This document shows positions 23,312 through 45,020 of a stretch of DNA of 64,000 bases, one piece after another. Location: contig JARFIW010001489.1 of NCBI GenBank assembly GCA_036346225.1, positions 372,001 through 436,000 on the forward strand, given 5' to 3'. Both the position numbers and the translations under genes were made by a program. The notes under the pieces are model-generated. The model was given only the letters and a program-made list of their open reading frames with translations. It searched no databases and had not been told where the DNA came from. The stretch's first letter is position 1, and every line of letters starts with the position of its first letter. The stretch comes from Platerodrilus igneus (Eukaryota; Arthropoda; Insecta; Coleoptera; Lycidae).

Positions 23312-24230
23312 GAGGATATTATATTTTATAAGAACAATGTAGATGTAAATCTCACGTTTAAATCATTATATTTTCCACGTTCCAATTCCAAGCAAAGGTT
23401 GCTAAAATACGTCAACGGAAAATTGGCTGTGGGGGTTTCTATGGAAATCCTCCTTATTATAGATGTCTAATTTCATGTATTTGAAACCAATGTTCTCTCG
23501 AAAGTGACGCATTCAATATCAGTTTCATACAATTGGGTCTTCTCATCAATAGCCGAATATTATCTAACCGTGTCAATAAATAAAAATACGTTATTTAATC
23601 TATATAGTGCTATTACAACATTCGGATACAATAGGAGTATTATGTTTCCCTTTGGGAGTTTTGTCGTGTCTCTCCAACACCTCCAACGGCGTCACATTAT
23701 ATACCGCAAGTAAAATTCCGCTTTAAAAGTAGGGTACTAATGAACATGAAAAAAAACGCACAGAAACTACGTCTTTGCCAGTGAGTATTACTGTAAATTT
23801 GTGTAAATTAACACTGAATCAGCGTCGTATTGAAGTATATACAGTTTGCTTATTACTAGTAAAAGTATTGTTCTTAAAATCAGAGGATGATTGTTTAATA
23901 TTTGTGGTAGCGCTGACTGAGATAAACATTACTTATACAACAGGTATGTATCTAAAAATTATTCAGTCATTTCGAAGGACATTTCTCTTATACAAAACCA
24001 TAAAGAAAACATACAGATATAATAATATTCCCACAGAACGTTTGCTGTACACAATATTCGTCTGATTTCATTTCTAACAATCAGAATACACAAATTCCCA
24101 CTCTATCAAAAGCGAAACTCACTAACGCCACTCAGATTGTCTAAGTTCTTATTTCATCAAAGGGGTTTATCAGTGCCTAAAGCTCTGTAGTGTATGTAGT
24201 TCATATCAAATATAATGTTCGCGAAGTTAT
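23307..24230. other. non-coding stretch
   Basis: One 96-codon plus-strand ORF (23775-24065) has unremarkable, low-information composition and no recognisable domain. Nothing else seen. Confidence 0.4.
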
Positions 24231-24232
24231 AA

Positions 24233-24318
24233 AATGTCACTTCCAAGTACATCAACAGAAGCTGCTTCCGATGTTGAAATCGATGAAAATTTGATCGATA
24301 ATGCATTTACAAAGACGT
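24233..24318 (+). CDS. possible first coding exon, unknown protein
   Basis: ATG opens MSLPSTSTEAASDVEIDE, an S/T-rich then acidic start, and the frame runs to ACAAAGAC followed by GTAAGT, a consensus donor at 24319. I do not recognise it. It lies at the left border of the virus-like cluster and could be the 5' exon of the plus-strand ORFs at 24572 or 30240, but the reading phases do not join cleanly. Confidence 0.35.
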
Positions 24319-24571
24319 AAGTTATTGTCTACAGTTTCATTTGAATAATATATTCTTAAAAATTTCTAAGCTTTTCCACATTTTCAAGCTTAAATATAAG
24401 TAAATATAAGATTGGTGTATCATATAAAAATTAAAACGTACTTTCCTTATTTACGAATGTATGATTGACATTGACAAAACTTGTTAAAGTAAATGAGAAA
24501 TTCCTGGTACCTATAGGTTGATAAAAAATTGAATTTCATTAATAGTGTACACATAATAGCTTTCTTATGTA

Positions 24572-24686
24572 ATGGAGAATCTTAACGGTCATTTGACGGA
24601 TGACGATGAGTTCATGGTATTTGTTGATTTAAGTGAAACTCATAAGGCCCAAAAAGTTTTTAGAAATATAGATATAATCATTGCGG
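24572..24686 (+). CDS. possible coding exon, unknown acidic protein
   Basis: MENLNGHLTDDDEFMVFVDL begins a plus frame that reaches ATCATTGCG followed by GTAAAT, an acceptable donor. It is acidic, with no known domain. Confidence 0.3.
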
Positions 24687-25349
24687 TAAATAAAATATTT
24701 CTTATTTTTGCTGTTTGTATTAGACAACGTGCATTCTATAACGGTTTTGTAACGTCTAACACGTGTTATTAATTTTTACTCTTTTTCCTGATCAAAATTG
24801 GCTGATATCTTATTAGGGTTGGCTTCAGACATTTTCAAAACACACTATTAAAGCACCGAAGACAAGCGAGAAAGCCATAAGTAAAAAACGAGTGACAAAA
24901 CTCTACGTCACGGTTTGTGCATGAGGACACGCGTTACTTAGCGTCTGTGATTAGCTCTCCCGGTTATTTGAACACGTCAAGCTTGCTAAAACAGCTATAA
25001 TTTTGTGGTTATGTTTATCAAAAGTTAGAAGGGTAGTATAATAATTTTCGTTGTAAGATGAGGTTTTCACTAATAAAAGTGACCTTTGTAGAAGTGTCCA
25101 CAATGCTTTTACATTTTATTTAAGTGCCTTGCCATCGTTTGTTGAAGCACTTAACCCTCAGAATTTTGTTTAAGAATACATAGATTGCTTTTACCATTTA
25201 AATTTATAGGTTTACAATATCGCGAATATTTTAAACGCAAGACCAACAGTAATACAATTTGAAATACACACATTAAAATGAGTCGTGAAAAATGTTGTTT
25301 AGGAAATGACATAATAAAAGAACACACATTCTAAAACGTTACATATTCG

Positions 25350-25925
25350 AGACAAATTATGTCACAAGTGCAAATACGTCTATTTAGCTAAGTAAAGTTG
25401 ATCAAGGTTCTATTTATTTTCAGCTGCATAGTGTAAATGACATACTAATTACACTCATCCTTAATGTATTGAACAATGACACTCTTATTTATTTACAAAC
25501 AGAAATGTGTTATATTTAGATGCGTTTTGATTTGAATTGTGTATGCAAAAACTAAATCATTGAAGAAAATGACCAAGTTTAATAAAATCACTAATTCTAT
25601 TAAAAAATACAATTATTTCCAAGAAGTGTCATGCTAGTAGCTCGATGTGACGTATCATTGTATTCTTCCATAACCTTAGGTAAAGTATCCCACCATCTAT
25701 GACTGCATTGCAAGTAAAATCTTTTGAACAACATGTTTTTGATTGTTCATATTAATCTTTCGCAGAAGAGCCGGCTTTGATTGCGGGTACGTAGAATAAA
25801 GGTTTAACTTTTATTTCATCGGGTTTTAGGTATTCAAAAAAGCGCGCAGGTAAAAAATAAAAAAATCATCACTTTCAACAATAGCACGACCTCCACACTT
25901 TGTCGACACTGACTTGATTTTTAAG
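25350..25925 (-). pseudogene. family B gene, left copy, 3' part and 3' flank
   Basis: The reverse complement aligns with 42520-43230 and with 44430-44560 at roughly 75-85 percent by eye. The coding end (about 25690-25925) reads, with a stop and frame breaks, SVSTKCGGRAIVESDD and a Leu-rich RAF block. The flank 25350-25690 matches the 3' flank of the copy at 42720-43230. The gene is cut at 25926-25929 by an LTR element; its 5' part resumes at 30095. Confidence 0.7.
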
Positions 25926-25929
25926 ATAC

Positions 25930-27005
25930 TATTACACTCATGATCGCATGCAATGCACTGAGCGGACAGCGAAACGTAAGTCTGACCATATCAGAGTACA
26001 CGTGCTGAGCACAGAACAACTTTTACTAAAAATCGGGAAACCAACATTTTTCAAATTTTGAATAATCAAAATTTACAACCTAAAACTAACAAAGCAATTC
26101 ATTGGTTAACTTTCTGATAAGCGTTTTTCAACTCACGATGGATAGCGACCTTAAGACTATAAATACAAATTCAATTTCTGCATAAATCAGTCCTAGTGCT
26201 CATCATAGCCTGGGGTTCACCTCTCCTCTGCAGTGCTCATCATAGCCTGTGAAAACCTTTCCAAAGCGACGCTCGCCATAGCACGTTTAATCCTAACGCA
26301 GTGCTCACCATAGCCTGCGTCCTGCCTTAAACGTTACCCTATCCGCCGCCGTACCTGGAAGCCGTCGTCGTAATTCATCCACACACAATTGACAAGCACG
26401 TACGAACGCTCAGCTCAGTTCCATACTGCACCGACGTCGTTATTGTGATTACATTCGTCAAGCTCTACCACAGGGACGACATCCCCGTAGAAGCATCAAC
26501 CCTACGACGCCGCCAGAGACTTCAGAAGACACTGAACATCTTCTGACCCTTTTTTTTTGTATATATTTGTAAATAGTAGTTTTTAAGTGCATATAATTTT
26601 CAGTTCATAATTGCTTTAACGTAATTTCTACCCACCACTAAACACACGAAGATTACCGACGAGAGCCGAACACCACCGAAGATGTCTGGACCTCGCCGAC
26701 CTCTATATATGTCTTAATCTTCGCTGTTAAGTTCACACGGGGCCTCTGAAGCAACATCCGAAGCTTCCCGAAGAAAGCCGAAGCCTTCCGAAGACCTACC
26801 CACCCCACTAAATGGTGCATATAATTTACTCCTGGCTCCACAGCCCCAGGAAGTCATCAGAAGCCATCCTAACAATTGAAACCATTTAATTTCACTTTTA
26901 TTATTATGTTTATTTGGATTTATAATGACTTTTCTTATGTTTATTAAACAATGATTTAAGCCAAGCCTACTTGCTTACAGACGCCGCCCCCATCGAACGA
27001 TAACA
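25930..27005 (+). repeat. 5' LTR
   Basis: Direct repeat of 29017-30094 with a few percent difference by eye. Just after the start site it carries four spaced copies of a GTGCTCATCATAGCCTG-like motif (26196, 26232, about 26271 and 26300). Confidence 0.9.
26158..26192 (+). promoter_or_regulatory. LTR core promoter (TATA + initiator)
   Basis: TATAAATA at 26158-26165 and TCAGTC at 26187-26192, with the initiator A 31 bp from the TATA start. The same pair is kept in the 3' LTR at 29246-29253 and 29275-29280. This places the U3/R border at about 26188. Confidence 0.7.
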
Positions 27006-27015
27006 AACGATAACA

Positions 27016-27036
27016 AATGTCGCCCAACGTGTCTGG
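27016..27036 (+). promoter_or_regulatory. primer-binding site
   Basis: TGTCGCCCAACGTGTCTGGG, some 12 bp inside the LTR, resembles the TGGCGCCCAACGTG start of tRNA-Lys-type primer-binding sites, with one difference in the first 14 bases. The intervening AACGATAACA duplicates the end of the LTR. Confidence 0.6.
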
Positions 27037-27225
27037 GCCGTCTTCATAAGAAGATTTTGCAAACAACGCGCTTGCAAGGACCACCATCAAGCCCGAGACG
27101 AAGACTCAAGTCATCTCTAACGTCCAGCCGGACACCAACCAGCCGCCTCCAACCCAGGAGGCCACTCAATCAACAGTTCTGGGACTGCAACAACTTAGTG
27201 GCGCTCAACAATACTGATCAACAAA

Positions 27226-27531
27226 ATGGCCACAACAGCCACCCCCGTGGCAGAGAGACCTACATTCTCTGGCACCCTCCTGGAGGATCCCAACGAATTC
27301 CTCCAGCAGATGGAAGCGATGAATGCGGATGTACCGACGACAACCGCACGATTCCGAGGCCAAGCAGCTACATGGTGGAAACCGTATGCCATGTTCCAGC
27401 CTACCTATGTCGAGTTCCGAAGGTTCTTTTTGGATAAGTACAGCAGTACAACCAGAGACTCGGAAAACAGCACCCCGAACGAGCCACGCCAGACTACAGG
27501 CCGGTCGGGCGCAACGAACTGGCACAACTAA
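27226..27531 (+). pseudogene. gag-like capsid fragment
   Basis: A 101-codon frame starts MATTATPVAERPTFSG and includes FRGQAATWWKPY and FRRFFLDKYSS. The latter two resemble the W..F...F...Y pattern of retrotransposon Gag capsids. There is no zinc knuckle; it stops after a Pro/Arg-rich tail. Confidence 0.55.
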
Positions 27532-27680
27532 CCGACGATGACCCACTACCAAGGATCCCCGTCACATTCTTAGTAGTTGCAGACCTTGCTGAGGATGTCA
27601 TTCCCGGCGAACCATGGCTACAGACGAGCAGACCACGAGCAACCCACACAACCCGTGTCGTTCTGCCTAATGTTGTGCAA
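27532..27680 (+). pseudogene. protease-like remnant
   Basis: Reading across, VTFLVVADLAEDVIPGEPWL resembles the D(V/I)I(L/P)G..(W/F)L second half of a gypsy protease. There is no DTG. It joins directly to the tandem repeats. Confidence 0.35.
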
Positions 27681-27713
27681 CGCGCACAACCGGAAAGGAA
27701 CACCTACGGACGG

Positions 27714-29095
27714 ATGTCTCAAGAAAAGGTGCTCTTTCAACAAGCAGCAAGCGACCCCAGAAGGGTTCGACGCCGCCACACGACGGTGACGCCCGTCACC
27801 GCCACACCAACTGCAGCTAAGCAGTTAACAAACGAATTCTTGCCAGCAGCCCTTGGGAAGGATTCCCACCAGTGATCAATGGGTCAGCTCTGCCTACTGC
27901 CGCCACCGGCATCATCCCATTATCACTGAACACAGCGACAGAAAGGTATACCTAAGGACGGATGTCCCAAGAAGAGGTGCCCTTTCACTCGCAACAAGCA
28001 GCAAGCGACCACAGAAAAGTCCAACGCCGCCACACGACGGTGACGCCCGTCACCGCCACACCAACTGCAGCTAAACAGTTCACAGACGAATTCTTGCCCA
28101 GCAGCCCTTGGGAAGGATTCCCACCAGTGATCAATGGGTCAGCTCCGCCTACTGCCGCCACCGGCACCAGCCTATTATCACTGAACACAGAGACAGAAAG
28201 GTATACCTACGGACGGATGTCCCAAGAAAAGGTGCCCTTTCACTCGCAACAAGCAGCAAGCGACCACAGAAAGATCCAACGCCGCCACACGATGGTGACG
28301 CCCTTCACCGCCAAACCAACTGCCACTAAGCAGTTCACAGACAAATTCTTCCCCAACCGCCTTTGGGAACAATCCACACCAGTGATCAGTGGGTCAGCAC
28401 CGCCTACTGCCAGCACCAGCACCAGCCCATTATCACTGAAAGTAGAAACATGCAGAGCACGAGCTAACTACACAGCCCGTGTCGAGCAGCCTAATATTGT
28501 GCAAAGCGCACAAACAGAAAGGAACACCTATGGATGGATGTCTCAAGAAAAGGTGCCCTTTCAATCGCAACAAGCAGCGAACGGCCACAGAAAGGTCCAA
28601 CGCCGCTACACGACGGTGACGTTCGTTGCCGTCCAACCAACTGCAACTACGCAGTTCACAGACGAATTCTCACCCAGCCGCCTTTGGGAAGAATTCCCAC
28701 CAGTGATGAATGGATCAGCACCGCCTACTGCCGCCACCGGCACCAGCCCATCATCACTGAACATAGAAACACGCAGACCACGAGCTAGCCACACAGCCAG
28801 TGTCGACCTGCCAAATATTGTGCAACGCGCACAAACAGAAAGGAGTACCTACGAACGGATATCCCAAGCAGAGGCGCCCTTTCAACCACAAGTAGCTGGC
28901 AATCATGGTGAAGTCCGACGCCGCCGCACAAAACGCAAACGTAGATACTTTAATCACAAAGCCCCGCCGCTTCTTCGCAACAACATAGCTACGCTACCAC
29001 CTTCAGCGAGGGGGAATATTACAATCATGATCGCATGCAATGCACTGAGCGGACAGCGAAACGTAAGTTTGACTATATCAGAATACACGTGCTGA
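27714..29095 (+). CDS. tandem-repeat ORF inside the LTR element
   Basis: A frame of 377 codons (27962-29095) contains four units, each starting (M/I)SQEEVPFHSQQA, then QRRHTTVTPV, then TPTAAKQFTDEF, then NGSAPPTAATGTS. A fifth, frame-shifted unit starts at 27714. Unit starts at 27714, 27962, 28217, 28538 and 28859 give lengths of 248, 255, 321 and 321 bp; the long units include an extra TARVEQPNIVQ block. Apart from the first step the lengths are multiples of three, which suggests the frame has mattered. It is rich in T, A, P, S and basic residues. Function unknown. Confidence 0.7.
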
Positions 29096-30094
29096 GCACA
29101 GAACAACTTTTACTAAGAATCGGAAAACCAACATTTTTCAAATTTTGAATAATCAAAATTTACAAATCTAAAACTAATAAAGCAATTCATTGGTTAACTT
29201 TCTGATAAGCGTTTTTCAACACACGATGGATAACGACCTAAAGACTATAAATACAAATTCAATTTCTGCATAAATCAGTCCTAGTGCTCATCATAGCCTG
29301 GGGTTCACCTCTCCTCCGCAGTGCTCATCATAGCCTGTGAAAACCTTTCCAAAGCGGCGCTCTCCATAGCACGTTTAATCCTAACGCAGTGCTCACCATA
29401 GCCTGCGTCCTGCCTTAAATGTTACCCTATCCGCCGCCGTACCTGGAGGCCGTCGTCGTAATTCATCCACACACAATTGACAAGCACGTACGAACGCTCA
29501 GCTCAGTTCCATACTGCACCGACGTCGTTATTGTGATTACATTCGTCAAGCTCTACCACAGGGACGACATCCCCGTAGAAGCATCAACCCCACGACGCCG
29601 CCAGAGACTTCAGAAGACACCGAATATCTTCTGACCCTTTGCTTTTGTATATATCTTGTAAGTAGTAGTTTTTAAGTGCATATAATTTTCAGTTCATAAT
29701 TACTTTAACGTAATTTCTACCCTCCACTAAACACACGAAGATTACCGACGAGAGCCGAACACCACCGAAGATGTCCGGACCTCGCCGACCTGTATATATG
29801 TCTTAATCTTCGCTGTTAAGTTCACACTGGGCCTCTGAAGCAACATCCAAAGCTTCCCGAAAAAAGCCGAAGCCTTCCGAAGACTTACACACCTCACTAA
29901 ATGGTGCATACAATTTACTCCTGGCTCCACAGCCACAGGAAGTCATCAGAAGCCATCCTAACAATTGAAACCATTTAATTTCACTTTTATTATTATGTTT
30001 ATTTGGATTTATAATGACTTTTCTTATGTTTATTAAACAATGATTTAAGCCAAGCCTACTTGCTTACAGACGCCGCCCCCATCGAACGATAACA
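29017..30094 (+). repeat. 3' LTR
   Basis: Partner of 25930-27005. The preceding AGCGAGGGGGAA (29005-29016) is a good polypurine tract. The TATA and TCAGTC core is at 29246-29280. Confidence 0.9.
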
Positions 30095-30098
30095 ATAC

Positions 30099-30258
30099 AA
30101 TATTTTCTATCGGTGGGAAGGTCAGATGCACTTATGGTAGTGTTATGCTTCATATTCATATTTAATTTTGTAAAATCCATAATTTTATATGATACGAAAA
30201 TAAGGAATAAAACAAATAAAGTGTTAACAATTTTAAAGTAGAAATTTAAATATTACAA
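30099..30258 (-). pseudogene. family B gene, left copy, 5' part
   Basis: The reverse complement matches 44275-44435: upstream AAATTTCTACTTTAAA.TTGTTAACAC, then ATGGATTTTACAAAATTAAA, encoding MDFTKLNMNMK. Similarity stops at about 30258. The 3' AG-type acceptor kept at 44341-44352 is lost here (TTGCCAG is changed), so this copy is probably not spliced correctly. Confidence 0.7.
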
Positions 30259-30868: not shown

Positions 30869-31258
30869 TATTTGTAGACAAGTTGACTAAATGGAAGTGT
30901 ACAAAAAGTTACCATTCCGCGCATTTACGAGCGATGTTTAAATTTTAAACTATAGATTTTAGAGAAATTTCTACAACTATAATCCTGCATATTACAGTTT
31001 ATCTTCTTATATTTCTAAATTGTTGTATTTCAACTAAAAATATTAATAGCTGTAAATAAAATTATGTTATAATTTTAAATAAAATGATTCTAGTTAATAA
31101 TTTCGTAAAACGTTTATAGCATCCTTTTAATAAATACACATCTTTGTTATAATTCTCTTCATAAGAACTTAGATACCCATTTCAGTTATGTGGATATTTG
31201 AAAAATTAAACATTAATAATGTATACTTTATATTTTATAACATAAACAAGTTAATATA

Positions 31259-32231
31259 CAGAGTGGTAGAAAAGTCCCGGAACGGTCAAATATTTTGGGA
31301 AATACTCATCGCATCAAAAAAAGAAAAAATACGTGTTCAATATTTTTTTAAAAGCTATCCAATGACACCAAAATTGAACCCCCACCCCACCCCCTGGGGG
31401 TAGGAGTGGGGCAACTTTCAAAGTTTAAGTGGAAACCACCATTTGTTATTGCAGATTCGGATTCCGCAGGATAAATTACCCCAAATTGACCCACGATACA
31501 AGCCATTTTGGATGATAGAAGGCGTTGTAATTGATAAAACTAAAATAGGGTACAAAAACATTTGAAATCGAAAAATGTTAGACTTACATTCATTTTTAGT
31601 ATTCATTTCGTTACTAGCTTTTGAAATTATTTCGTGATGTTTCTGTCTGAAAGAGAACGAATAATTGTCCTGATGATGCGGGGGTATGGAGATAAAGAAA
31701 GATCATTGCAGCAAGTCGCAGATTTATTCAATGAAGTCAATGCTGAACGTCAACCGATTTCTAAGTCTACTGTGAGTCGAACAGTGAATCGTTTTGAGCG
31801 AACTGGTTCGGTGAAGGATGAACCAAGATCTGGAAGACCTAAAAGCGCGACAAATGATCAATTTGAACACCTTCGGCGGTAATTTCGTTATGTATAAAAT
31901 AAATAATTTATTATTTTACTTCTTTTATTTTCTGATCCATCAATTCTTCTAGAAATAGTTAATTTTTGTCGATTGCAGCGCCATCTGCAAAAAACCTAAA
32001 AAAATTATGACTAACATTTTGTGGCGAATCCGAATCTGCAATAACAAATGGGGATTTCTACTTAAACTTTTAAAGTTGCTTTACCCCTACCCCAGGGGGT
32101 GGGGGTGGAGGTTCAATTTTGGTGTCATTGGATAGCTTTTAAAAAAATATTGAACACGTATTTTTTCTTTTTTTGATGCGATGAGTATTTCCCAAAATAT
32201 TTGACCGTTCCGGGACTTGTCTACCACTCTG
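31259..32231 (+). mobile_element. Tc1/mariner-type element with ~200-bp inverted repeats
   Basis: 973 bp flanked by TA (31257-31258 and 32232-32233). The ends read CAGAGTGGTAGAAAAGTCCC and its inverse, and inverted similarity continues for about 200 bp (31259-31456 against 32026-32231), including a C-rich CCACCCCACCCCCTGGGGG block. Inside is only the N-terminal DNA-binding part of a transposase, so it is an internally deleted copy. Confidence 0.93.
31634..31882 (+). CDS. transposase N-terminal helix-turn-helix remnant
   Basis: 82 codons: FLSERERIIVLMMRGYGDKE starts the first helices, SKSTVSRTVNRFERTGSV is a helix-turn-helix recognition region, and EPRSGRPKSAT is the GRP-type linker that follows it in Tc1/mariner-type transposases. 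There is no catalytic DDE/D domain: it ends at a stop shortly after the linker. It could bind the inverted repeats without cutting. Confidence 0.75.
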   Translation: MMFLSERERIIVLMMRGYGDKERSLQQVADLFNEVNAERQPISKSTVSRTVNRFERTGSVKDEPRSGRPKSATNDQFEHLRR

Positions 32232-32302
32232 TATACAAAGTAATTTCTAAATTCACATCATTCATTTCTTATGATAGTGGTTGAGGTGGTTAAATTTTTG
32301 CT

Positions 32303-32491
32303 TTAAAACTTACAATTTAGTATATATTCCATCTGAGTATCTGCCAACAGTTTTATAAACCCCATCTCCTCGATTATTTCCATAAAATTTTTCAAATCTT
32401 TGGGCATTACTGACACAACAGTACAGTCCTGTATTGCATCCTCGTATGACTGACACATTTTTCTCCTTCTATAGAAAACCGTTGCCGGCAT
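32303..32491 (-). CDS. small hypothetical protein (62 aa), virus-like cluster
   Basis: The intact minus ORF begins MPATVFYRRRKMCQSYEDAI and ends LADTQMEYILNCKF; basic N-terminus, mixed charge. No recognisable domain. It lies just past the mariner-type element and in the same direction as the ATPase gene upstream. Confidence 0.4.
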   Translation of the reverse strand: MPATVFYRRRKMCQSYEDAIQDCTVVSVMPKDLKNFMEIIEEMGFIKLLADTQMEYILNCKF

Positions 32492-32795
32492 TTTGCTTTT
32501 TTACTGGTAGAGCATAGCGAAATCTTTGAATAACCTTTCCAAAGTCTTTATACATATTTGTTTAATCGTCTCTTTAAACTGTATAATCGACAAATTATAA
32601 CTTTTACGCAAACAGTCGTTTTACATGAGCTACTCTTGTTCGGATATACCCCGATTGTGTCCGATTTGGGTGCACGCACAAAATAACAGGTTGGGAATGT
32701 ATCCTATGAACTAATTCATTACATTCCTTAGGAAAATGCTAAAGACTTTAAAAATAATTATAACTCTTGTTAGACCTCTAGTGTCAGGATAAACG

Positions 32796-33819: not shown

Positions 33820-33838
33820 CTTTCAAATATACAGCTAA

Positions 33839-34035: not shown

Positions 34036-34104
34036 AAACTATGTAGTTAGAACATCAAAACTTATGATATAATTAAAATAACATAGATTGTAAACTTTTG
34101 ACCA

Positions 34105-34230: not shown

Positions 34231-34379
34231 GCTTACCATTAATTAAAAGAGTCAAATCAATATAAAAATTTATTTAGAACTACAAAATCATGTTAATTAA
34301 AGAATCAAATTAATATAAATTCAAAAAATAGTATTCTTTAAAATATAAACGTTTTGCTTGGCACAGTTCAGAAAATAAA

Positions 34380-34784: not shown

Positions 34785-34826
34785 GTTTCCACTTCGAGAG
34801 CTGATTTATAAATAACCAAACTTTGA

Positions 34827-35771: not shown

Positions 35772-35959
35772 GTCAGTCAACAGTATTAACTAATGGTATT
35801 AAATACAAGTCTTTACAGGAAAAACCTAACCCAAGGCTTAACTAATTATATTATTGTAGATTTTCCCCGAGTTTATCATTAACATACAAGTATTTGAAAA
35901 GTATACATAGACTCAAAGTCCAACTTGTTCAACATTTGACTGGACCGCCCGCTAGCCTG

Positions 35960-36203
35960 CTTTTGTATAATTAACAAAGTTTCACAGTTGATCTTCAACG
36001 CGGTATGCTCTTTTAATTTTTTTTCAGTCAAACGCACAAATTGAGTTTTCCGGGTCCGAAGAAATTCTCGAATGTCCCCAACAGCATGAGTGTTCCTTAT
36101 CCGATAACTTACTATACGATTTCTAAAAGCAGAGTTAATAATCTGAACTGTGTCATTATCAGTAGCTCCATCAACTGCATTTTTATGTGCATAGAACGAA
36201 GAT
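35960..36203 (-). pseudogene. Polinton-type polymerase-like protein, N-terminal region (distal part)
   Basis: Minus frame: IINSAFRNRIVSYRIRN, DIREFLRTRKTQFVRL, LKEHTALKINCETLL. This pattern (cysteine-rich fingers, then a NRIxxYR block, then a helix leading to LKxNxE) resembles the N-terminal region of large insect ORFs that carry Polinton-type family B DNA polymerase. No polymerase catalytic motif is visible here. The upstream part lies at 39632-40113; an RTE-type element separates them. At about 35960 the similarity ends and an unrelated tail runs to a stop at 35879. Confidence 0.45.
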
Positions 36204-36291
36204 AGGTAAAATACTCCCTCATTCGGATCTCCGGGAGGGGGTACTTGGGGCTCGTCATCGTAAGAATATAAAACAACAGTTCGATTTAGTG

Positions 36292-36970
36292 ATAGGGACT
36301 TGAAATGTAAGGTCATTACTTAGAGTAGATAAGTTAACGAATTTATTAGTTGAGAAAGGAAAAGCTGGACATTTTAGGTATTAGTGAGGTGAGATAGCCA
36401 GATAGTAATGACTTTTGGAAAGATAATTATAGAATAATTACAACCTCTTCAACTAATGGACAGGCAAGCGTAGGAATAGTGTTAGGTAAAAGATTAGGGC
36501 ATAAAGTTAAAGAGTACTTACAATTTAGTGATAGAATAATTATGGTTAGATTGAGTACAAAACCCACAGACACTGTTTTAGTTTAGGTTTACATGCCAAC
36601 AACTCAGTACGAGGATGAGGAAGTAGAAAAGGTATACGAGGATATAAATAGTATAGTGAGAAAAGTAAAAGGAGATGAGAATTTAATAGTAATGGGCGAT
36701 TTTAATGCGTCAGTGGGAGAAGGTAGTGAGGGAAAAATGGTAGGAAAATTTGGGTATGGCAGACGAAATGATAGAGGAGAAAGATTAGTTGAGTTTTGCC
36801 AGGAACATAGATTAGTAACTGTAAACACCCTATTCGAACAACATGTTAGGAGAAGATATACCTGGAAAGCGCCAGGTGATAGGGCTAGATACCAAATAGA
36901 TTATATTTTAGTTAAACAAAGATTTAGAAACCAAGTTAAAACTGTCGTAGTTATCCAGGGGCTGACATAG
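36292..36970 (+). pseudogene. RTE-type AP endonuclease
   Basis: Starts with a TGA-broken GTWNVRSLLR-type block at about 36292, then KLTNLLVEKGK. The long frame (36593-36970) has LIVMGDFNASVGEG, GERLVEFCQEHRLVTVNT, and RRYTWKAPGDRARYQIDYIL; GDFN and the YQIDYI segment are AP-endonuclease motifs. In databases this family is often mislabelled craniofacial development protein 2-like. Stops between the blocks make it inactive as written. Confidence 0.85.
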
Positions 36971-37283
36971 ATAGCGATCATAACTTAGTTAAAATGAAGT
37001 GTAAACTAAAATTAAAAAATTGAGAAAGTTTAAAAGAGAGGATGGGATCTAGGTAAGCTTAATGATAGTAGGGTAAAGAGGAATATAAACAAGTATTAGA
37101 TAATAAGAGCAAAGAGATAGCTGTAGGAGGAACGTAGAAAATAGATGGAAAGAAATAAAATGACTGTACATGATACAGCAACACAGACTATAGGTAAGAA
37201 AAATAGAAGCGAGAAAACCGTGGGTAACAAAGGAGATATTAGATTTAATAGAGAATAGAAGAAAGCTTAAACCTTTCAGAGAA

Positions 37284-38250
37284 GTGGATAGTGAAAGTAA
37301 GCAAAAATATAATACAGTTAGAAATAAGATAGTACATGAGTGTAGAAAAGCTAGAAATAAATGGATGGAGGGGAATTGTAAGGGAATACAAGATGATTTG
37401 AGAGTAGGTAAGACAGACAGGGCTTACAGGGCAGTTAAAAAGTTTTTTGGGGAAGATAGGAAAAAATATAATGGTATTAGTGACGAGAATAATGAGCTTC
37501 TAATAAATAAAGTCGAGGTAGCAGATAGATGGAAAAGATATTTAGAAGATTTGACGATATGGATGAGTTAGAAAACGACCAAGAAGAGGATGTAGAAATA
37601 GGGTTCTCAATATTAAGAGAGGAATTTGATAGAGCTGTTCGGAATCTTAAAATAAATAAAGCGCCAGGGATAGACGATATTCCCGCAGAATTAATAAAAT
37701 ATGCAAGTCAGAAAACTTTAGATAGATTATATGAACTAGTAAAAGTAATATATGACACAGGTGAGGTTCCAATAGATTTCGAAAAAAATATTATTATCTC
37801 AATCCCAAAAAAGTCAGGAGCTGATAGGTGTGAGAATTTTAGAATGGTTAGTTTAACTTCTCATGCTTCCAAAATACTAACAATAATAATTAAAAATAGA
37901 GTAGAAGCTTTGACTGAGAATTATGTAGGCGAAGACGAATATGGTTTTCGTAAAGACAGAGGGACTAGAGAACCGATACTAATGATTAGGGTAATTATCG
38001 AAAAAAGGTTACAAAAAAATAAAAAGACTCATTTCGCGTTTGTAGATTTAGAAAAAGCATTTGATAGGGTTAATTGGATTGTTATGTTCAGGGTTTTGCA
38101 AAAAATAGGAATCTCTCGTAGGGATAGAAAAATTATTTATAGTCTATATAAAAACCAAAGCGTAGTAATTAGATTTGATGAAATAGAAAAGGAAGCTAAG
38201 ATTAGAAATGGTGTTAGACAGGGTTGTATACTGTCTCCTTGATTTTAATG
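37284..38250 (+). pseudogene. RTE-type reverse transcriptase, finger and palm
   Basis: Two overlapping plus frames: 37284-37571 (KFFGEDRKKYNGI, RWKRYLEDL) and 37529-38242 (KINKAPGIDDIPAEL, ENFRMVSLTSHASKIL, FAFVDLEKAFDRVNW, RNGVRQGCILSP). Motif A is VDLEKAFD and motif B is GVRQGC(I)LSP. The frame ends at a stop two codons after ILSP, and a frame change leads into the next part. Confidence 0.85.
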
Positions 38251-38326
38251 TTTATATTGAGAAAGCTTTAAACTTAGCTAGAGAGAGAAAGAGATAGGTA
38301 TTAGTGTACAGGGACAGAAAATAGAC

Positions 38327-39094
38327 ATGTTACGTTTTGCAGATGATATAGCCATTATAGCAGAGTCTAGAAAAGAGTTAGGAAAGTTTTTAAATATTTT
38401 AGATGAGATACTACAGAGTAACTATGGTATGAGAATTAACTCAGTAAAGACAAAGATAATGACAAGTGAGTTACAGCCTAGTTCTAAACCAAAATTAAAA
38501 ATAGGTGATACCGAGTTAGAGGAGGTAGATAAATTTTGCTATTTAGGTAGTATAATTACAAAAGATGGACGTAGCAGAAGGGATATAGTAGCTAGAATAG
38601 CTCAAGCTAGAAAAATGTTTTTAAAAAAGAAAAACTTACTAATAGCTAATAGTATTAGTTTAGATAATAGAAAAAGTTTCTTAAAGTCGTACGTATGGAG
38701 CGTTCTACTATACGGTAGTGAGACTTGGACAATTAAAGAAGTAGATAAGAAAAAGATAAAAGCTTTTGAAACTTGGTGTTATAGGAGAATGTTAAAGATT
38801 AGTTGGACAGATAGAGTAACAAACGAGGAAGTTTATAGAAGGATAGGTGAGGATCCCTGTATGTGGAAACAATTGAAGGTCAGGAGAGATAGAATGATAG
38901 GGCACCAGTTAAGACATGAGGGACTATTTAGTAAAGTCTTAGATTATAGACTACCAAATAAAAATAGAGTAGGAAGGCCTAGACAAAGCTATATTAGTCA
39001 AATTATTAGAGATGTAGGTTGTGAAGGGTATGTAGACCTTTTTAGACTAGTTCAGAATAGAAAACAGTTTAGAGCTGCGTCAAACCGACTTTAA
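38327..39094 (+). pseudogene. RTE-type reverse transcriptase, motif C to C-terminus
   Basis: MLRFADDIAIIAESRKEL carries the catalytic FADD. It is followed by FCYLGSIITKDGRSRRDIVA, YVWSVLLYGSETWTIKEVDK, WCYRRMLKISWTDRVTNEEV and a C-terminal GRPRQSYISQIIRDVGCEGY. Long and clean, so decay upstream may be recent or technical. Confidence 0.9.
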
Positions 39095-39144
39095 GTAAGT
39101 TCGAAAACAAAACAAAAAGAAAAATAAAAATCAGTTAACTAAAT

Positions 39145-39330
39145 GTCACCAGGACATGACTCACAATTGGCTAGCGGTCTGGCATGTTGGTAGCGTTTCG
39201 TTGCTTAAGCCTTACCATAACATATAATTTAATAAACGTCACCATGGCATAACTCACAATTAGGTAGCGGTCTGGCATGTTGACAGCGATTCGTTGCTTA
39301 AGCCTTACCATAACATATAATTTAACACTT
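39145..39330 (+). repeat. 93-bp tandem repeat, two units
   Basis: Units at 39145-39237 and 39238-39330, both containing GTCACCA.G.CAT.ACTCACA and TTGCTTAAGCCTTACCATAA, lie in the 3' part of the RTE-type insertion. Confidence 0.9.
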
Positions 39331-39469
39331 TGCCTTTTTGAAGCGGATAACCAGGTTATATTTCATTTCCTTATAAATGGTAATCATGTAAACATGTTAG
39401 AGTTCTTTAACAACCATCAGGTTGCTAATATCTATGTAGAGAGAGCCAGCTGGATAGAAAAAAGATAGA

Positions 39470-39620
39470 AGGATATAGGAAGACCTAGACCAAACTATAT
39501 TAGTCAAATTATTAGAAATTTAGGTTGTGAAGAGTATGTAGAGCTTTTTAGATTAGCACAGAATAGAAAAGTAGTTAGAGCTGCGTCAAACCGACCTTAA
39601 GTTAGGTCGATAAAAAAAAA
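39470..39620 (+). pseudogene. second RTE 3' end
   Basis: Matches 38964-39105 at roughly 85-90 percent by eye: GGAAGACCTAGACCAAACTA, then TTAGAGCTGCGTCAAACCGA, a stop, and an A tail. It ends the same insertion, inside the single target duplication. Confidence 0.8.
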
Positions 39621-39631
39621 AGAACGAAGAT

Positions 39632-40060
39632 GGTGAGTAAACGCCTTTTTAGGTATGGCGACATCGCAGACGGTACACTGCATCATTTCATCTACACGAG
39701 ATTTCTTAGCAGGGGTGCTTCAGCATTGAACACCTGACGTTTACTATTTACAATCCTTGCACTCGTTGCTACAGGTGCTGTACGTGTAAAAGTAGACGAA
39801 CCTTCATGAGTATCTTAGAGTTGTTTTAGGACATTCTTCCTCGAAAAACAGCATTACAAATTTCACATAAATAATTCAAACTTGGACCACGCGTTGAAAC
39901 ACTGTGCTTAGAATCTTGGCTGTGTTTGAGGCTATCTTTTCTAGAGAACGCTACCGAACAAACATCGCAGATAAACATTTTTGAAGATTCCATTTTCTTC
40001 TGTATCAATAAACAGGGTTTAGAGGAGCGCGTATTTAAAATGGGTTTTGTTAGGAGCAAG
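39632..40060 (-). pseudogene. C2H2-finger N-terminus of a Polinton-type polymerase-like protein
   Basis: The minus frame from MESSKMFICDVCSVAF (about 39990) has CDVCSVAFSRKDSLKHSQDSKH, a C2H2 finger. Then comes CEICNAVF, broken by a frame change, and after a further frame change CTVCDVAIPKKAFTHHLR at the junction with the RTE-type insertion. Removing the insertion joins this directly to the frame at 36193. The split gene is thus explained by one transposition plus small frame changes. Confidence 0.55.
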
Positions 40061-40323
40061 ACTGAATACATCCTAGATATAGATCGCTGTCGAGATTTGT
40101 TTGTCAATGACAAGAAATCCCAGAACTACTCAATTAGAATGGCAATATCTAGAAGGTTTAGTTTTTACCCTCAACACGATTATTTTGAAGGTCCTGTCAA
40201 TGAGTCTGTGTATACTTTCCAAATATTTGTATGTTAATGATAAACAGGGTAACAAAAGACAAAATCAACATTTTTCTAGCCTGCTCGATTATTACACATT
40301 CATTACACAAACAAAATAACCAA

Positions 40324-40812
40324 TGTGACAGTATGTTAATGTATGCATTTAATACTACCCATGTGGGGTGTTGTTGGATTTATCTGGACTTTGCCAGTAT
40401 ATGTCAATGCTAAATAAAAACAAATAAAATTATTCAAACATTTATTCACAATATTTCTTAACATAACTACATTACTGCGGACACAATTAAGACTCTTGTT
40501 GGTATGTAATACACAGCGGCTTAAAGTGTCACAACTTTTTCTTAATTGTTTCAACTTGGAATACCCCATGCTTCTAGATTCTTGACGTTGTTATTAGACA
40601 GGTATCGAACAATTATTTTTGTTTTATTTAATCCCTTGAAATAAATAGTAGAGCCCACAGGAATCATCTCTTGCAAGTATAAACTTAAAATATTGTGGGG
40701 ATAATCCATTTGTAGAGGGGGTATCCCATTTCAGACCATGCAAGTATTGTGTCTTAAAATTGCATTGCTTTTGGAAGGCATCGCTTAAATCGGTGGTGCA
40801 CAACAGCATTCC
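40324..40812 (-). pseudogene. family A (DIQ-F) protein, copy 2, N-terminally truncated
   Basis: Minus strand: TTDLSDAFQKQCNF, YLHGLKWDTPSTNGLS, then in another frame IYFKG-type and NLEAWGIPS, SKLKQLRKSCDTLSRCVLH, RSNVVMLRNIVNK. It ends near AATAAAATTATTC. It is one unit of a ~489-bp tandem duplication with 40813-41300 and lacks the MYxxDIQGF start. Confidence 0.6.
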
Positions 40813-41517
40813 GTGACAGTATGTTAATGTTTGTATTTAATAATACCCATGTAAAGTGTTTTGGATTTATCTGAACTTTTGCCAATATATGTCAATGCTA
40901 AACGAAAACAAATAAAATTATACAATCATTTATTCACAATATTTCTTACCATAACTACATTACTTCGAGCACAATTAAGACTGTAGTTGATATGTAATAC
41001 ACAGTGGCTTAAAGTGTCACAACTTTTTCTTAATTGTTTCAAACTTGAAATACCCCATGCTTCTAGATTCTTGATGTTGTTATTAGGCAGGTATTGAACA
41101 ATTATTTTTGTTTTATTCACCCCCTTGACATAAATAGTAGAGTCCACTGGAATGATCTCTTGCAAGTATAAACTTAAACATTGTAGGGATAATCCATTTG
41201 TAGATGGGGTATCCTATTTCAGACCATGCAAGTATTGTGTGCTGAAATTGCATTGCTTCTGGAAGGCATCGCTTAAATCGGTAGTGTCCAACGGCATTTC
41301 CAAAATTTCGTGCCACAATTTCCCAATCTGCAAATGTATCACAGTCAATTCTTTGATAATAAATCACTTTTCTTGTATTTGGAATCCTTGTATGTCCAGA
41401 ATATAATACATTTTGCAGATGATTGTTGTTTGTTCGAAGTGTGATTTTAAATGTGCTCAGTCTTGAGTGAATTCTGTCATATAGTTGAAAAAGATATAAT
41501 TCAGTGTCTCGATGCAA
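40813..41517 (-). pseudogene. family A (DIQ-F) protein, copy 3
   Basis: The conserved frame on the minus strand begins MYYILDIQGFQIQEK (about 41410), then ELTVIHLQIGKLWHE, then YLHGLK, LYLQEIIPVDSTIYVKGVNK, NLEAWGISSLKQLRKSC and RSNVVMVRNIVNK. At least two in-frame stops interrupt it. A longer uninterrupted ORF in another frame (41113-41517) is a shadow, since the other copies support the frame given here. Its promoter is at 41578-41613. Confidence 0.6.
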
Positions 41518-41613: not shown

Positions 41614-42365
41614 TGGATCTTAATGATATAAACAGATCCATTCCAATCAACATAAATCCTGTTTCTAAAACCTGACCCACAACTTTGAAACCCTTTCACA
41701 GAACGCTATGGCATCATATTGTTTATGGAAAATTCTCAAAAGTGTTTTAATAAGTGCTAGGATGATTATAACACATTTGGCTTTCTCATTTATTCATTAG
41801 CGCTTCAACAGAAACTTTCTCACATTTCTACAAACATTAATACCGATTTTTTCGACCATTTTCAAAGGAGTTTTAGCAAAAACTTCTGTTTTAGACTCTA
41901 TAAATCTTAGGTTTACTAAAAATATGAGAAAACTTGGTAATTGTATTATAAAAAATAAAAACCCATTTAAGCGTATTTTTAAACCAATTAAAACATCTAG
42001 ATTTCCCAAAGTATATTTTAAATCTTGTTTAATTTGGCAAAGGCAAAACTAATTAGAAGAATCCAAGTTATGTATATAAAATGCAAGAAACAGATGCCAA
42101 ATCGAGTTAAGGGTAAAAAAATATAATAGAATAATCTCGCTAAAAATTTGGTGTTTCAAAATGTCTATTGACTGCTTTAAACGTCCAGAACGCAAAAATG
42201 TGGAGGTGCAAGAGGTTCTATATGTCGGGGATTTCTATTAACACCGGATACCTAAGGATTTGATATGCGACAGAATAGGGTAGTGAATGCTGCAGATCCG
42301 AAAGAAGATTAGGATCTAGTTAATCAGGCTTAAAATATCCCTAAACACATTTTCACGATTCATGT

Positions 42366-42720
42366 TCGGAAACAAAGAGTAGGATATAAATCGAGAAAAT
42401 GGCGACATTATATTAATTATATAAAGTATCGTGACACGTTTGGACTGTACAATTTGCTAACCTATATGAACTTGATCACGAAAAGGGGCGATTTCAATTT
42501 ACACGAGGATTTACCAAATTACCTGGAGATGACTAAAGTAGCTTCGATTTTACGATTTTTTATTTTTACCAGAGCGCTTTTTCGAATACCTGAACTCGAT
42601 AGAATAAAAGATAAACCATTATTCTACGTACCCCGCAATCAAACTCAACTTTTGCGAAAGATTATTAAGAACAATCAAAAACAAGTTGTACAGAAGATGT
42701 TACTTGCAATGCGGTCATAG
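42366..42720 (+). pseudogene. family B-like gene, middle copy (chimeric 5' part)
   Basis: The open frame includes SRKWRHYINYIKYRDTFGLY, LITKRGDFNLHEDLPNYLEM and, from about 42540, FFIFTRALFRIPELDRIKDK and KPLFYVPRNQ. Only the last ~60 codons and the 3' flank match family B; the first part is different and unrecognised, so the copy looks fused or recombined. The ORF ends KMLLAMRS at 42720. Confidence 0.5.
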
Positions 42721-42734
42721 ATAGTCGGATATTT

Positions 42735-43230
42735 TACCTAAGGTTACGGAAGAAACAACAATACGTCACATCGAGCTACTAGCACGACACTTCATGAACA
42801 TAAATGTATTTTTTAATCGAATAAATGATTATATTAAACCTTGCCATTTTCTTCAATGAATTAGTTTTAGCATACACAATTCAAATCAAAACGCGTCTAA
42901 ACATAACACATTTCTGTTTGTAAATAAATAAGAGTGTCATTGTTCGATACATTAATGAGTGTAATTAGTATGTCATTTACATTATACAGCTGAAAATAAA
43001 TAGAACCTTGATGTATTTTTTAATTGAATAAATGATTTATTAAAATTGGTTATTTTGCTCCTCTCAAAAGTGGTAATCTATAAAACGCTCCTTTAAGCAC
43101 ATAAATCAGAGTATCATTGTTCTATACATTAATAATGAATGTAATTAGTACGTCATTTACATTAAACAGCTGAAAATAAACGGAGCCTTGTAAATTTTAC
43201 TTGGCTAAATAAACGTATTTGTGTTTGTAA
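42735..43230 (+). repeat. inverted partner of 25350-25690, internally duplicated
   Basis: CGTCACATCGAGCTACTAGC and the following ~280 bp are the reverse complement of 25395-25685. A second partial tandem copy (43020-43230: GTCATTTACATTAAACAGCT, then TAAATAAACGTATTTGTG) also matches the left segment. Confidence 0.85.
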
Positions 43231-44111
43231 CATATTTGTTTCAAATTGTTTCAATTAAAAATCCATTTCTACCTAAAAATGTTATTGTTAATGCGAAAAT
43301 TTTTCCCAAATTCATTTCTAACGAGTAATGTATCATAAGTATGAAATGAGTTTGTTTCTGTCAACAAACTTTCCAGTTATGAATTATGTTTACATTCTAA
43401 TTATGTACAAGAGATTGTTAAAAGACGTGTTTATTGTTTTCTTCTTTATGGAGATTGCCATAATTAAAATCATTTCTTCGGGAATTATGTCATTTCTAAT
43501 ATAATCTGGTTTAATATAATTGGGAAGGTCAAGTTTCTGTTTCAATAAACACGTTACTTCTAATTTTTACAAATTCCATCCTGTTGAAGCGTTAATAAAA
43601 ATGGGAAAGTCAAATATGATGTAATTACCCTAGCACTTTTACACCAAAGATTTATTTTAATTTTAATTTTAAATATGGCACGCTTTATGGTTTAAAGATT
43701 GCTAGAGCTTGGAATTTGTTTAATGTCTGTAGTAGATCTAAATACGAAGAATGCCGCAGGTCTCGTATTAATCATTCTCAAAGACTACTTTTGCAATATG
43801 GAGAGTACATTTAAATTTGTTTATGCAGAATGGGGGAATGTATGTCAATTGTCCAAGTACCCCATCGTTTTTATCCCCTATAACAATAGTTAATGTGTTT
43901 TAGCTACTTTTAGTTTGCCAATACTTGTATCTAAAGTTATTTAATTGCGAATTGATGTAACGTAGTTTTACTAAATACCTTAGGGTTAAAACATTACCTT
44001 TGAGAATTTTTCCATAAACAATCTGAAACTAGAGCGGTGTGTGAAAGGGTATTAAAGTTGAGGGTCAAGTTTCATAACAGGATTTATGTTGATTGGAAAG
44101 GATCTAAAGAT

Positions 44112-44179
44112 TTATGTAAATAGACCGGGTTTCTAGTTCAAATATCAGTTTCAACATTTGCAGAATTCGATACAAGTAG
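44112..44179 (+). promoter_or_regulatory. family B promoter and first exon
   Basis: A degenerate TATGTAAATA at 44112-44121, TCAGTT at 44145-44150, a 33-nt exon to AAGTAG at 44179, donor GTAAGA, and an acceptor TTGTTTGCCAG ending at 44352. It is the inverted relative of 41548-41613. Confidence 0.6.
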
Positions 44180-44352
44180 GTAAGACTTTTTAGTTTAAAA
44201 TTATTATTCCTGCATCAAGACACGGAATTATATCTTTTACAACATCTTAAAAGTTATATTTCGGTCTTAACTCATAAGAGATTTAATTGTAATACTTAAA
44301 TTTCTACTTTAAATTGTTAACACTTCATTTATTTTATTTTCTTGTTTGCCAG

Positions 44353-44665
44353 CTTATATAAAATATGGATTTTACAAAATTAAATATGAATATGAAGCGT
44401 ATAACTACAATAAGCGCATCCGAACTTCCCACTGATAGAAAATATCGTATCTTAGGAATCATGTCTGTGTCAACAAAGTATGGGGGTCGTGCTATTGTTA
44501 AAAGCGATGATTTTTTTTTGTTTTTTACCAGGGCGTTTTTTCGACTACTTAAAACTTGATGGAATAAAAACCTTCAGCGAACTAATAGACGGTAAGAAAA
44601 ATGTTTATATGATTAGCCGGGGTAAAGCCGGTGCAACAGTGAACATAGACTTCGAATTAGACTAA
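44353..44665 (+). CDS. family B protein (about 100 aa), right copy
   Basis: ATG at 44365, 12 bp into the predicted second exon: MDFTKLNMNMKRITTISASE, LPTDRKYRILGIMSVSTKYG, RAIVKSDDF. The frame then changes at a run of nine T's (44511-44519) to FLPGRFFDYLKLDGIKTFSE and GKAGATVNIDFELD, ending at 44665. A one-base homopolymer error would explain the break, so the gene may be intact. Basic start, beta-rich pattern, ending acidic; I suspect a small DNA- or protein-binding beta fold but recognise no family. Confidence 0.6.
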
Positions 44666-44879
44666 AATTAACATTTTCTCCTTGCTGAATCTTTGCTGAT
44701 CTTAACCGTATGCAAAATTGTTCTATTAATGTATAGTATACCGAATAAACTGTATTAACGCATATTGTTCTTTTCCCAGTGGACTGTTAATAATACATCT
44801 TGACGTTCCACACACTGTTATAAATTGAACAAGATTCGCGCTGAAAGCACCGTGTTCTATCCTTCTCAAAGACTACAAA

Positions 44880-45020
44880 ATGATTCGAAAATTAGCTTAC
44901 AGTAGTATACGAGGTAGGTCGATAAAAATTGGTTTAAAATATGGTGCTGGTGATGTAAGCAGACATGGTCGATGTGTTAAAGTGATGTTGGGGTGTAAAG
45001 TTACTGGCACACCTGATTAA
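44880..45020 (+). CDS. small basic protein (46 aa), virus-like cluster
   Basis: Intact ORF: IRKLAYSSIRGRSIKIGLKY, SRHGRCVKVMLG, ending TGTPD. Net charge about +10. A TATAAA lies at 44819-44824. Too short to assign; small basic proteins are often DNA-condensing or capsid-associated in DNA viruses, which is only an analogy. Confidence 0.4.
   Translation: MIRKLAYSSIRGRSIKIGLKYGAGDVSRHGRCVKVMLGCKVTGTPD

Follow-up and report, generated by a model that had tools for sequence, protein, structure and literature searches.

The Locus and Its Genes

The DNA analyzed here (the window) is a 64,000-nt stretch of the 2.71-Gb genome of Platerodrilus igneus (Lycidae; assembly GCA_036346225.1, contig JARFIW010001489.1, positions 372,001-436,000, forward strand). 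Judged from its sequence, the region from 25.2 to 44.7 kb is very probably DNA of a decayed Maverick/Polinton-type element. Its genes lie on the minus strand from approximately 41.7 to 25.2 kb, adjoining pieces at 42.3-44.7 kb have the opposite orientation, and three inserts break it up. The features are as follows; L numbers denote other loci of the same genome.

25345..25932, minus: left copy of a segment that follows gene D and includes the C-terminal half of gene B; matches L005 2859-3406
25934..30098, plus: inserted LTR element, outside the Maverick DNA; LTRs 96.7% alike, the flanks showing a 4-bp duplication, ATAC
30091..30258, minus: remainder of the left segment, with the N-terminal part of gene B severed by the LTR insertion
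31244..32246, no strand assigned: inserted DNA transposon, outside the Maverick DNA, with a helix-turn-helix frame between inverted arms; presumably mariner-like
32250..32671, minus: DNA of the element, lying downstream of the ATPase gene; 85-86% to L010, L012, L013 and L016
32963..33664, minus: putative A32-like packaging ATPase, full length, 234 codons with two in-frame stops, Walker A and B kept
33697..33822, minus: psq helix-turn-helix (HTH_psq, Pfam, E 6.9e-8), N-terminal domain of the fused psq-ATPase
34101..34256, minus: ATPase C-terminus, second partial copy (tblastn span 34119-34256)
34324..34805, minus: gene A copy 1, decayed; a 165-aa open frame in L006
35552..35749, minus: gene C fragment; 82% over 66 aa to an L005 frame, E 1e-24
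35948..36190, minus: PolB N-terminal region, second piece; 41% over 81 aa to L021 PolB, E 6e-14
36204..39620, plus: inserted LINE with reverse transcriptase, outside the Maverick DNA; absent in seven of seven distinct related loci
39844..40125, minus: first piece of the PolB N-terminus, comprising its C2H2 finger part (zf-C2H2_6 E 1.4e-4, under its cut-off)
40339..40836, minus: gene A copy 2, within a 488-bp tandem duplication
40927..41405, minus: gene A copy 3, from repeat comparison
42356..42552, plus (opposite orientation): gene D fragment; 92% nt to L005
42556..43246, plus: R1, right copy of the segment that follows gene D, from repeat comparison
44287..44662, plus: R2, third gene B copy with its 5' flank; this site is undisturbed by the LTR insertion

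A sequence-only reading of the window had reported a psq helix-turn-helix with an A32-like ATPase at 32942-33819, together with a partial second ATPase copy. The former is confirmed by the HTH_psq match and by a Pox_A32 match over the curated Pfam cut-off (E 4.1e-5), and the latter by the C-terminal piece found with tblastn. Over its whole frame, the ATPase is approximately 36-51% identical to its relatives (tblastn rows, queries P0001-P0043), and the psq piece matches residues 1-43 of the fused protein at 88%. The two parts are in different frames in the window, being frame-shifted, and in a single frame in open copies elsewhere.

The window ATPase has 43 relatives in the protein database, in a search admitting proteins of approximately 87-278 aa, outside which a 294-aa fusion in other species falls; the nearest are approximately 230 aa long, and Pox_A32 is present in 40 of the 41 relatives aligned. 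The predicted structure of one relative (pLDDT 84) has the STIV2 packaging NTPase B204 as its best PDB match (E 2.2e-7); among viral models, a bracovirus protein ranks first, followed by A32-like, virophage, adintovirus and IVa2 ATPases. In the tree, the window ATPase is nested in this family on a long branch (96/94, 10-row set). By domain matches and predicted fold, the family is classed as a packaging ATPase of the A32/FtsK-HerA type. Viral contigs yielded no relatives of the window ATPase, the ATPase family alignment, or the polymerase, A, B or psq pieces, and bacterial and archaeal genomes yielded none of the ATPase family alignment.

The polymerase gene is represented in the window by N-terminal pieces only. 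The proposal that C2H2 fingers join a Polinton-polymerase-like N-terminus holds in that both parts match PolB (39844-40026 matches its C2H2 part, E 3e-5), but residues 1-41 of the frame at 35879-36319 are LINE-derived, and polymerase is restricted to approximately 35948-36190. The three copies each of families A and B noted previously are real repeats, those of gene B lying at 25700-30180 (split), 42556-42720 and 44366-44662. The structure predicted for family A, at pLDDT 34, was of no use, and the protein database gave no match to family A or to the polymerase piece, with queries that were short and decayed and, for the polymerase, partly LINE.

The window copy is dead. Six frames of at least 120 aa occur in 13.8 kb outside the inserts, compared with a mean of 0.41 in 200 shuffles (maximum 4), an excess over chance, and one occurs in 12.7 kb of other window DNA. 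For A, B and the ATPase, the copies in the window showed no clear codon-position bias.

Inverted Layout

An inverted layout of approximately 17-19 kb had also been described. Its segments are indeed inverted, 25401-25864 pairing with 43012-42556 (88%) and 30095-30258 with 44450-44287 (86%). However, the right-hand parts are out of mirror order, so they do not form a simple terminal repeat, and terminal inverted repeats were dropped as the source of the layout. The most fitting reading is a pair of oppositely oriented fragments. The left segment is split at 25930/30098 because the LTR element inserted there. The window bears no trace of the terminal repeat of the high-copy family described below, a point against the Maverick reading.

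The psq-ATPase Family in the Host Genome

The window genes recur together elsewhere in this genome. Around the polymerase piece at seven other loci, gene C is found at six, the C2H2 part at six and gene A at five, in a shared order with approximately 87-93% nucleotide identity. Failure of these frames to co-occur elsewhere had been named as grounds against a viral origin; within this genome, they do co-occur. A gene D frame of approximately 320 aa comes after the psq-ATPase.

At least 150 scored copies of the psq-ATPase are dispersed in the host genome, approximately 55 of them stop-free. In all 12 stop-free copies fetched, which were chosen for open frames, the ATPase lies in frame behind the psq helix-turn-helix (fused length approximately 294 aa) and its former start methionine has been lost; the methionine is kept in L002, L003 and the window. 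Between L010 and 11 other copies, the psq-ATPase frame differs by 2.1%, an ORF-free flank by 3.7%, and two PolB stretches by 5.1% and 2.7%; because copies with open frames were selected, this comparison is biased in how conserved the ATPase frame looks. The same bias applies to dN/dS in the ATPase part, which is near 0.4 (12 copies, 66 pairs). When the psq-ATPases of L002, L003, L005 and L006 are compared with that of L010, differences number 131, 79 and 128 by codon position, and this minimum at second positions points weakly to coding constraint. Three findings are new here: the fusion of psq to the ATPase, its spread, and the disappearance of the former ATPase start codon from the high-copy lineage.

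Four complete elements of the family (L013-L016) are 15.6-16.4 kb long and have AG...CT inverted ends, and all four, the evaluable ones, are flanked by perfect 6-bp target duplications. These ends and duplications are the terminal features of Mavericks. In the complete elements, the psq-ATPase lies near one end and the C2H2/PolB gene near the other. PolB of L021 contains a DNA_pol_B_2 region (Pfam, E 2.4e-11) as well as C2H2 and Endonuclease_7 regions, and L024 has an open PolB frame of 1130 aa; from these matches, the gene is predicted to encode a family B polymerase of the Maverick protein-primed, viral/organellar type. We consider it highly likely that the window belongs to this large same-genome group, which encodes a psq-fused A32/FtsK-HerA-type ATPase and whose complete copies add C2H2-PolB. 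The earlier idea of integrated Polinton-like remains is thereby supported, as relatives with Maverick ends, a PolB gene and the same ATPase exist in this genome and the window gene pieces match them.

Possible Mechanism and Alternative Origins

PolB would copy the linear element, and the psq domain would give the ATPase a sequence-specific hold on the element's own DNA, uniting recognition and ATP-driven translocation or packaging in one protein. Integration with a 6-bp duplication would fall to a retrovirus-like integrase, provided either in cis or by other Mavericks in the same genome. The role of the psq-ATPase would thus be to recognize element DNA for translocation or packaging. We put the mechanism as a whole forward tentatively, at somewhat less than even confidence. 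What lets the A32/FtsK-type packaging ATPases encoded by Mavericks and by viruses related to them select their own DNA is, to our knowledge, not established; an ATPase of this type that is naturally joined to a DNA-binding domain makes the question directly testable.

The high-copy psq-ATPase elements might be non-autonomous Maverick satellites that have retained their ends, the psq-ATPase and PolB but rely on full Mavericks of the same genome for integrase and capsid, the window being an old relative; this is plausible, if short of probable. In agreement with the sequence-only reading, which had recognized no capsid, integrase or protease gene, the window frames scanned with Pfam, a part of those in the segments covered, revealed no integrase (rve), capsid (double jelly-roll major capsid, penton) or adenovirus-like cysteine protease domain, which weighs against the Maverick reading. 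The interval of approximately 10.5 kb between psq-ATPase and PolB in L010/L021 contains no frame longer than 110 aa, and the middle of one decayed copy, with the minus strand scanned in part, yielded no integrase, capsid, protease or other Maverick domain. At least 150 PF08398 phospholipase-type matches, many with frames of approximately 284 aa, occur in the host genome; the insect Maverick CAP has been likened to parvovirus VP1 with its PLA2 domain (PMC5803895). However, the domain scan represents one copy, the lineage may be decayed or rearranged, insect Maverick capsid genes may be absent from Pfam, and the PF08398 places could not be linked to those of the psq-ATPase. A fuller scenario, in which a Maverick packaging ATPase of this insect lineage captured psq and became a cis-recognizing motor, enabling gene-poor elements to spread as satellites on the integrase and capsids of others, is unlikely. 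Because related copies abound in this genome at varied stages of decay, the course by which Mavericks expanded, perhaps by way of satellites, should be traceable in one species.

That the psq-ATPase is a Maverick-derived host gene now serving the insect would fit its numerous open frames and low divergence, but is very improbable: the copies are dispersed, and the four seen with both ends sit between inverted ends and target duplications, indicating a mobile family and not a single host locus. An endogenous nucleocytoplasmic large DNA virus or poxvirus piece, suggested by the Pox_A32 match and by fold matches to large-virus ATPases, is still less credible; it is refuted for the family by element ends and size, is at odds with the viral/organellar-type PolB and with closest ATPases the size of an insect Maverick ATP (228 aa; PMC5803895), and the four complete copies, at 15.6-16.4 kb, fall short of a large genome with a conserved core gene set. 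Equally improbable is a chance gathering of unrelated transposon scraps and open frames, which the repeat-rich window, its real LINE, LTR and DNA-transposon inserts and the partly LINE polymerase frame might suggest, but which is refuted by the gene order recurring at other loci.

Comparison with Known Systems

Like the Maverick-type family described here, intact vertebrate Mavericks end in inverted repeats bearing AG.../...CT motifs and are flanked by 6-bp target duplications; they contain eight conserved intronless ORFs (seven in one frog), whereas the recognized genes here are the psq-ATPase and PolB (PMC8097293). Sf Maverick 1 and 2 of Spodoptera frugiperda encode a poxvirus A32-like ATP of 228 aa and a POLB of approximately 1162 aa in which endonuclease VII and DNA polymerase B2 regions are present, a pairing also seen in this family (PMC5803895). 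Their ORF2 (305 aa), which follows ATP, resembles gene D in place and size only, and Sf Maverick 2 has a large ORF on the opposite strand, where the polymerase piece also lies in L005. They have integrase, CAP and protease, which were not found here in the stretches scanned, and the available part of the source mentions no psq fusion (PMC5803895).

The FtsK-like protein of Drosophila-associated adintovirus 3 has a similar fold (E 2.9e-6, 16% identity), the ATPase fold alone being compared. B204 packaging NTPases of STIV and STIV2 (PDB 4kfr, 4r2h) belong to the same fold family as the ATPase relative at 13-15% identity, although the matched chains are listed without a helix-turn-helix fusion. 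Under the less likely capture scenario, one psq-ATPase chain would do the work of the separate recognition and motor subunits of other packaging systems.

Structure of the High-Copy Family

A search of the P. igneus genome with the ATPase yielded at least 150 scored matches among 10981 first-look candidates (71-86% identity apart from the window itself), and about 55 of the best 150, counted by eye, have a stop-free frame of at least 285 aa. Comparison of 11 copies of this high-copy family revealed a sharp homology border, starting AGTAG, about 840 bp before the gene for an A32-type ATPase fused behind a psq helix-turn-helix (psq-ATPase). The far end is visible in four copies (L013-L016) of the ten with a second fetched stretch. 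Once inverted, the far ends of L013-L016 are 94-97% identical to the left end of L013 over 286-298 bp, perfect 6-bp target duplications flank the element in all four, and summed coordinates give a length of 15.6-16.4 kb. Near the far end lies a gene for C2H2 fingers, a family B DNA polymerase (PolB; Pfam DNA_pol_B_2, E 2.4e-11) and an Endonuclease_7 region (E 0.0011, below the cut-off); PolB is split into three frames in the far-end locus L021, and a 1130-aa open frame occupies its position in L024. Insect Mavericks are described with an A32-like ATP of 228 aa and a POLB of 1162 aa (PMC5803895), and the Polinton gene set is outlined elsewhere (PMC4028283; PMC6431247). Because the inverted ends, 6-bp duplications, A32-like ATPase and PolB agree with published Mavericks, the high-copy family is of Maverick/Polinton type.

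In L010/L021, about 10.5 kb between psq-ATPase and PolB contains no frame longer than 110 aa. A Pfam scan of this middle (six frames of L010 5190-9901, plus strand of L021 1-5500, minus strand of L021 1-3600) recovered no integrase, capsid or protease and gave two weak, unrelated matches (E 0.01-0.02). The middle may be a decayed region or reflect a satellite design. At L021:39-721, inside the Maverick, lies a decayed tyrosine recombinase-like piece (Phage_integrase, E 0.0021, below the cut-off; not recovered in longer frames at E <= 0.05). This piece may come from a Crypton-like element inserted there, or be an additional, atypical gene.

The psq-ATPase Fusion and its Possible Retention

In all 12 copies sampled from the roughly 55 stop-free ones (L009-L020), psq lies N-terminal to the ATPase within one shared reading frame; a single 295-residue frame of one fetched copy matches both HTH_psq (E 1.1e-6) and Pox_A32 (E 2.3e-5). 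The second codon of the fused frame is Met in 11 of the 12, being lost in L019. The original ATPase start Met is missing from all 12 and is retained in the window and in loci L002 and L003. From this loss we infer that, in the high-copy lineage, the ATPase could be made solely as a psq fusion.

Relative to L010, and among copies chosen for open frames, 206 of 9735 positions of the psq-ATPase frame are changed, with one frame-shifting gap, as compared with 412 of 11027 and 39 gaps in the ORF-free flank (11 copies each), 802 of 15611 and 71 gaps in the first two PolB pieces (7 copies), and 144 of 5427 and 23 gaps in part of the third. This suggests that selection retained psq-ATPase longer than most other element DNA, but the choice of copies favours such a result, and differences by codon position in psq-ATPase (97, 49 and 60) do not peak at the third. 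In PolB they are 232, 191 and 379 (first two pieces) and 53, 18 and 73 (third), and this third-position excess is a sign of past constraint.

Remnants in the Window

The window lies in an assembly of 2.71 Gb in 1723 contigs and is rich in repeats, including an LTR element, LINE reverse transcriptases and simple repeats (self-comparison, Pfam and repeat scan). These transposons, together with a beetle protein among the ATPase relatives, mark it as insect DNA. Window 32250-32671 and 32802-33936 are 86-87% identical in nucleotides to L010, L013 and L016, and window pieces match, in order, the fused protein, PolB, and frames at other loci of the small recurring genes A, C and D.

Features of the window
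41405-40935 and 34805-34324, minus: gene A (match to A frame from other locus)
40026-39844, minus: PolB residues 17-90 (match to family PolB)
36190-35948, minus: PolB residues 158-237 (match to family PolB)
35749-35552, minus: gene C (match to C frame from other locus)
33822-32945, minus: psq-ATPase (match to fused protein)
33664-32963, minus: full-length ATPase, Walker A and Walker B kept, two in-frame stops (tblastn with 43 relatives)
34119-34256, minus: second ATPase piece, C-terminal (tblastn with 43 relatives)
42356-42552, plus: gene D (match to D frame from other locus)
7741-8934 and 14532-15725: repeats of the LTR element, 98.7% alike; rve and RVT_1 matches, Ty3_capsid below the cut-off (Pfam)

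The sequence-only reading had joined C2H2 fingers to a polymerase N-terminus. The PolB matches bear out a polymerase, but residues 1-41 of the piece recur at 90-98% in more than 100 of the best 150 scored rows and adjoin a LINE, and for these reasons we read them as LINE DNA. The LINE insertion is absent at the equivalents of 36203/39621, all seven distinct related loci being continuous across the site.

The same reading had proposed an inverted layout of about 17-19 kb. The arms are indeed inverted, 25345-25864 pairing with 43246-42556 and 25809-30258 with 44569-44287, but not in mirror order, and the high-copy terminal repeat leaves no trace in the window. Both arms (25235-25816 and 42603-43246) match one and the same segment of L005 (contig C1274), which immediately follows D there. 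The left arm thus goes with the minus-strand genes, and the pieces of opposite orientation include the right arm, preceded by D; both arms are copies of an internal segment. Among the window's A, B and ATPase copies, differences are roughly even across codon positions, as expected for dead DNA.

Other sequences in the window include an open frame (42334-42720) in which a deletion apparently joined part of gene D to the C-terminal part of gene B; a GC-rich minisatellite of CCCGCC type immediately 5' of psq-ATPase (33884-34030), similar repetitive frames preceding psq-ATPase in L004, L007 and L008; two inverted tRNA-Ala(GGC)-like sequences (22489-22563 and 23040-23114) inside a repeat with long AT tracts; and a minus-strand repeat protein in several pieces with a finger-like start (57785-60091), two scanned pieces of which have no Pfam match at E <= 0.01. 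Window 30240-30862 contains two open frames (133 and 88 aa) that do not share a reading frame; they are absent from the element copies compared with the window by nucleotide and give weak Pfam/PHROGs matches (E 0.037 or worse); the best PDB-sequence match of the 133-aa frame has E 0.34.

Co-occurrence of the Genes Elsewhere

That the genes stay together outside the window holds within this genome, where they recur in the same order at about 87-93% nucleotide identity. The series A'-C2H2/PolN-C-A-psq-ATPase (A', additional A copy; PolN, N-terminal polymerase pieces) is complete at one non-window place, contig C1028 (L006, L039, L040), and partial as A'-C2H2/PolN-C-A at L036 and L038, A'-C2H2/PolN-C at L034 and A-psq-ATPase at L003. 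Within 1.5-kb flanks of the polymerase piece at seven other loci, C and C2H2 each occur at six and A at five; beside the ATPase at L002-L008, C and D each occur at four of seven and A at two. L009 and L010, the high-copy copies inspected in detail, keep remnants only (last 22-28 residues of C, first 40 of D). Genes A and D each have at least 150 scored copies in the genome (of 9968 and 4470 candidates, respectively), many A copies being stop-free and many D frames 250-333 aa long. Gene D immediately follows psq-ATPase in L005 and, judged by coordinates, on contig C405.

Relatives of the ATPase and Proposed Function

The minus-strand piece at window 32942-33421 scores above the Pfam cut-off for Pox_A32. 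Of 51 candidates from a database search, 43 proteins qualified as relatives at E <= 1e-3, mostly 220-260 aa; the one with an organism name, P0043, comes from the beetle Callosobruchus chinensis. The window ATPase falls inside their family in the tree, on a long branch. Pfam (E <= 0.01) lists Pox_A32 for 40 of the 41 aligned relatives and HTH_psq for none. In the PDB, the top match to the structure model of relative P0018 (41 alignment rows, pLDDT 84) is the packaging NTPase B204 of STIV2 and STIV. Among viral models, a bracovirus protein ranks top (28% identity), followed by large-virus A32-like ATPases, ATPases from virophage and adintovirus, and IVa2 of adenovirus.

The fusion, ends, target duplications and PolB are observed, and the ATPase fold is that of a relative's model. 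We propose that PolB would copy the element by protein priming and that integration would be carried out by an rve-type integrase, encoded by the Maverick itself or by others. The psq domain might recognise the element's own DNA, so that the ATPase would act on that DNA.

PF08398 is a phospholipase A2-type domain of the kind in parvovirus VP1 and, as reported for insects (PMC5803895), in Maverick CAP. PF08398 has at least 150 scored matches in this genome, many in stop-free 284-aa frames, and none in 14 control genomes, which suggests that capsid-type Maverick genes exist here, although none of the matches could be assigned to a psq-ATPase element. One of them is located downstream of a same-strand match to gene D, at a distance of 5.8 kb (example coordinates G000:C933 16768-17064 and 22835-23020).

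Comparison with Known Mavericks

A psq-ATPase fusion in Mavericks is not mentioned in the titles and abstract openings listed for the literature searched, a scope mostly outside subscription journals. Gene D occupies the place of ORF2 (305 aa) of Sf Mavericks as described in PMC5803895, and, by position and size, probably corresponds to it. Intact vertebrate Mavericks are reported with inverted repeats, AG.../...CT end motifs and 6-bp duplications (PMC8097293), and the four complete high-copy copies have the same ends and duplications.
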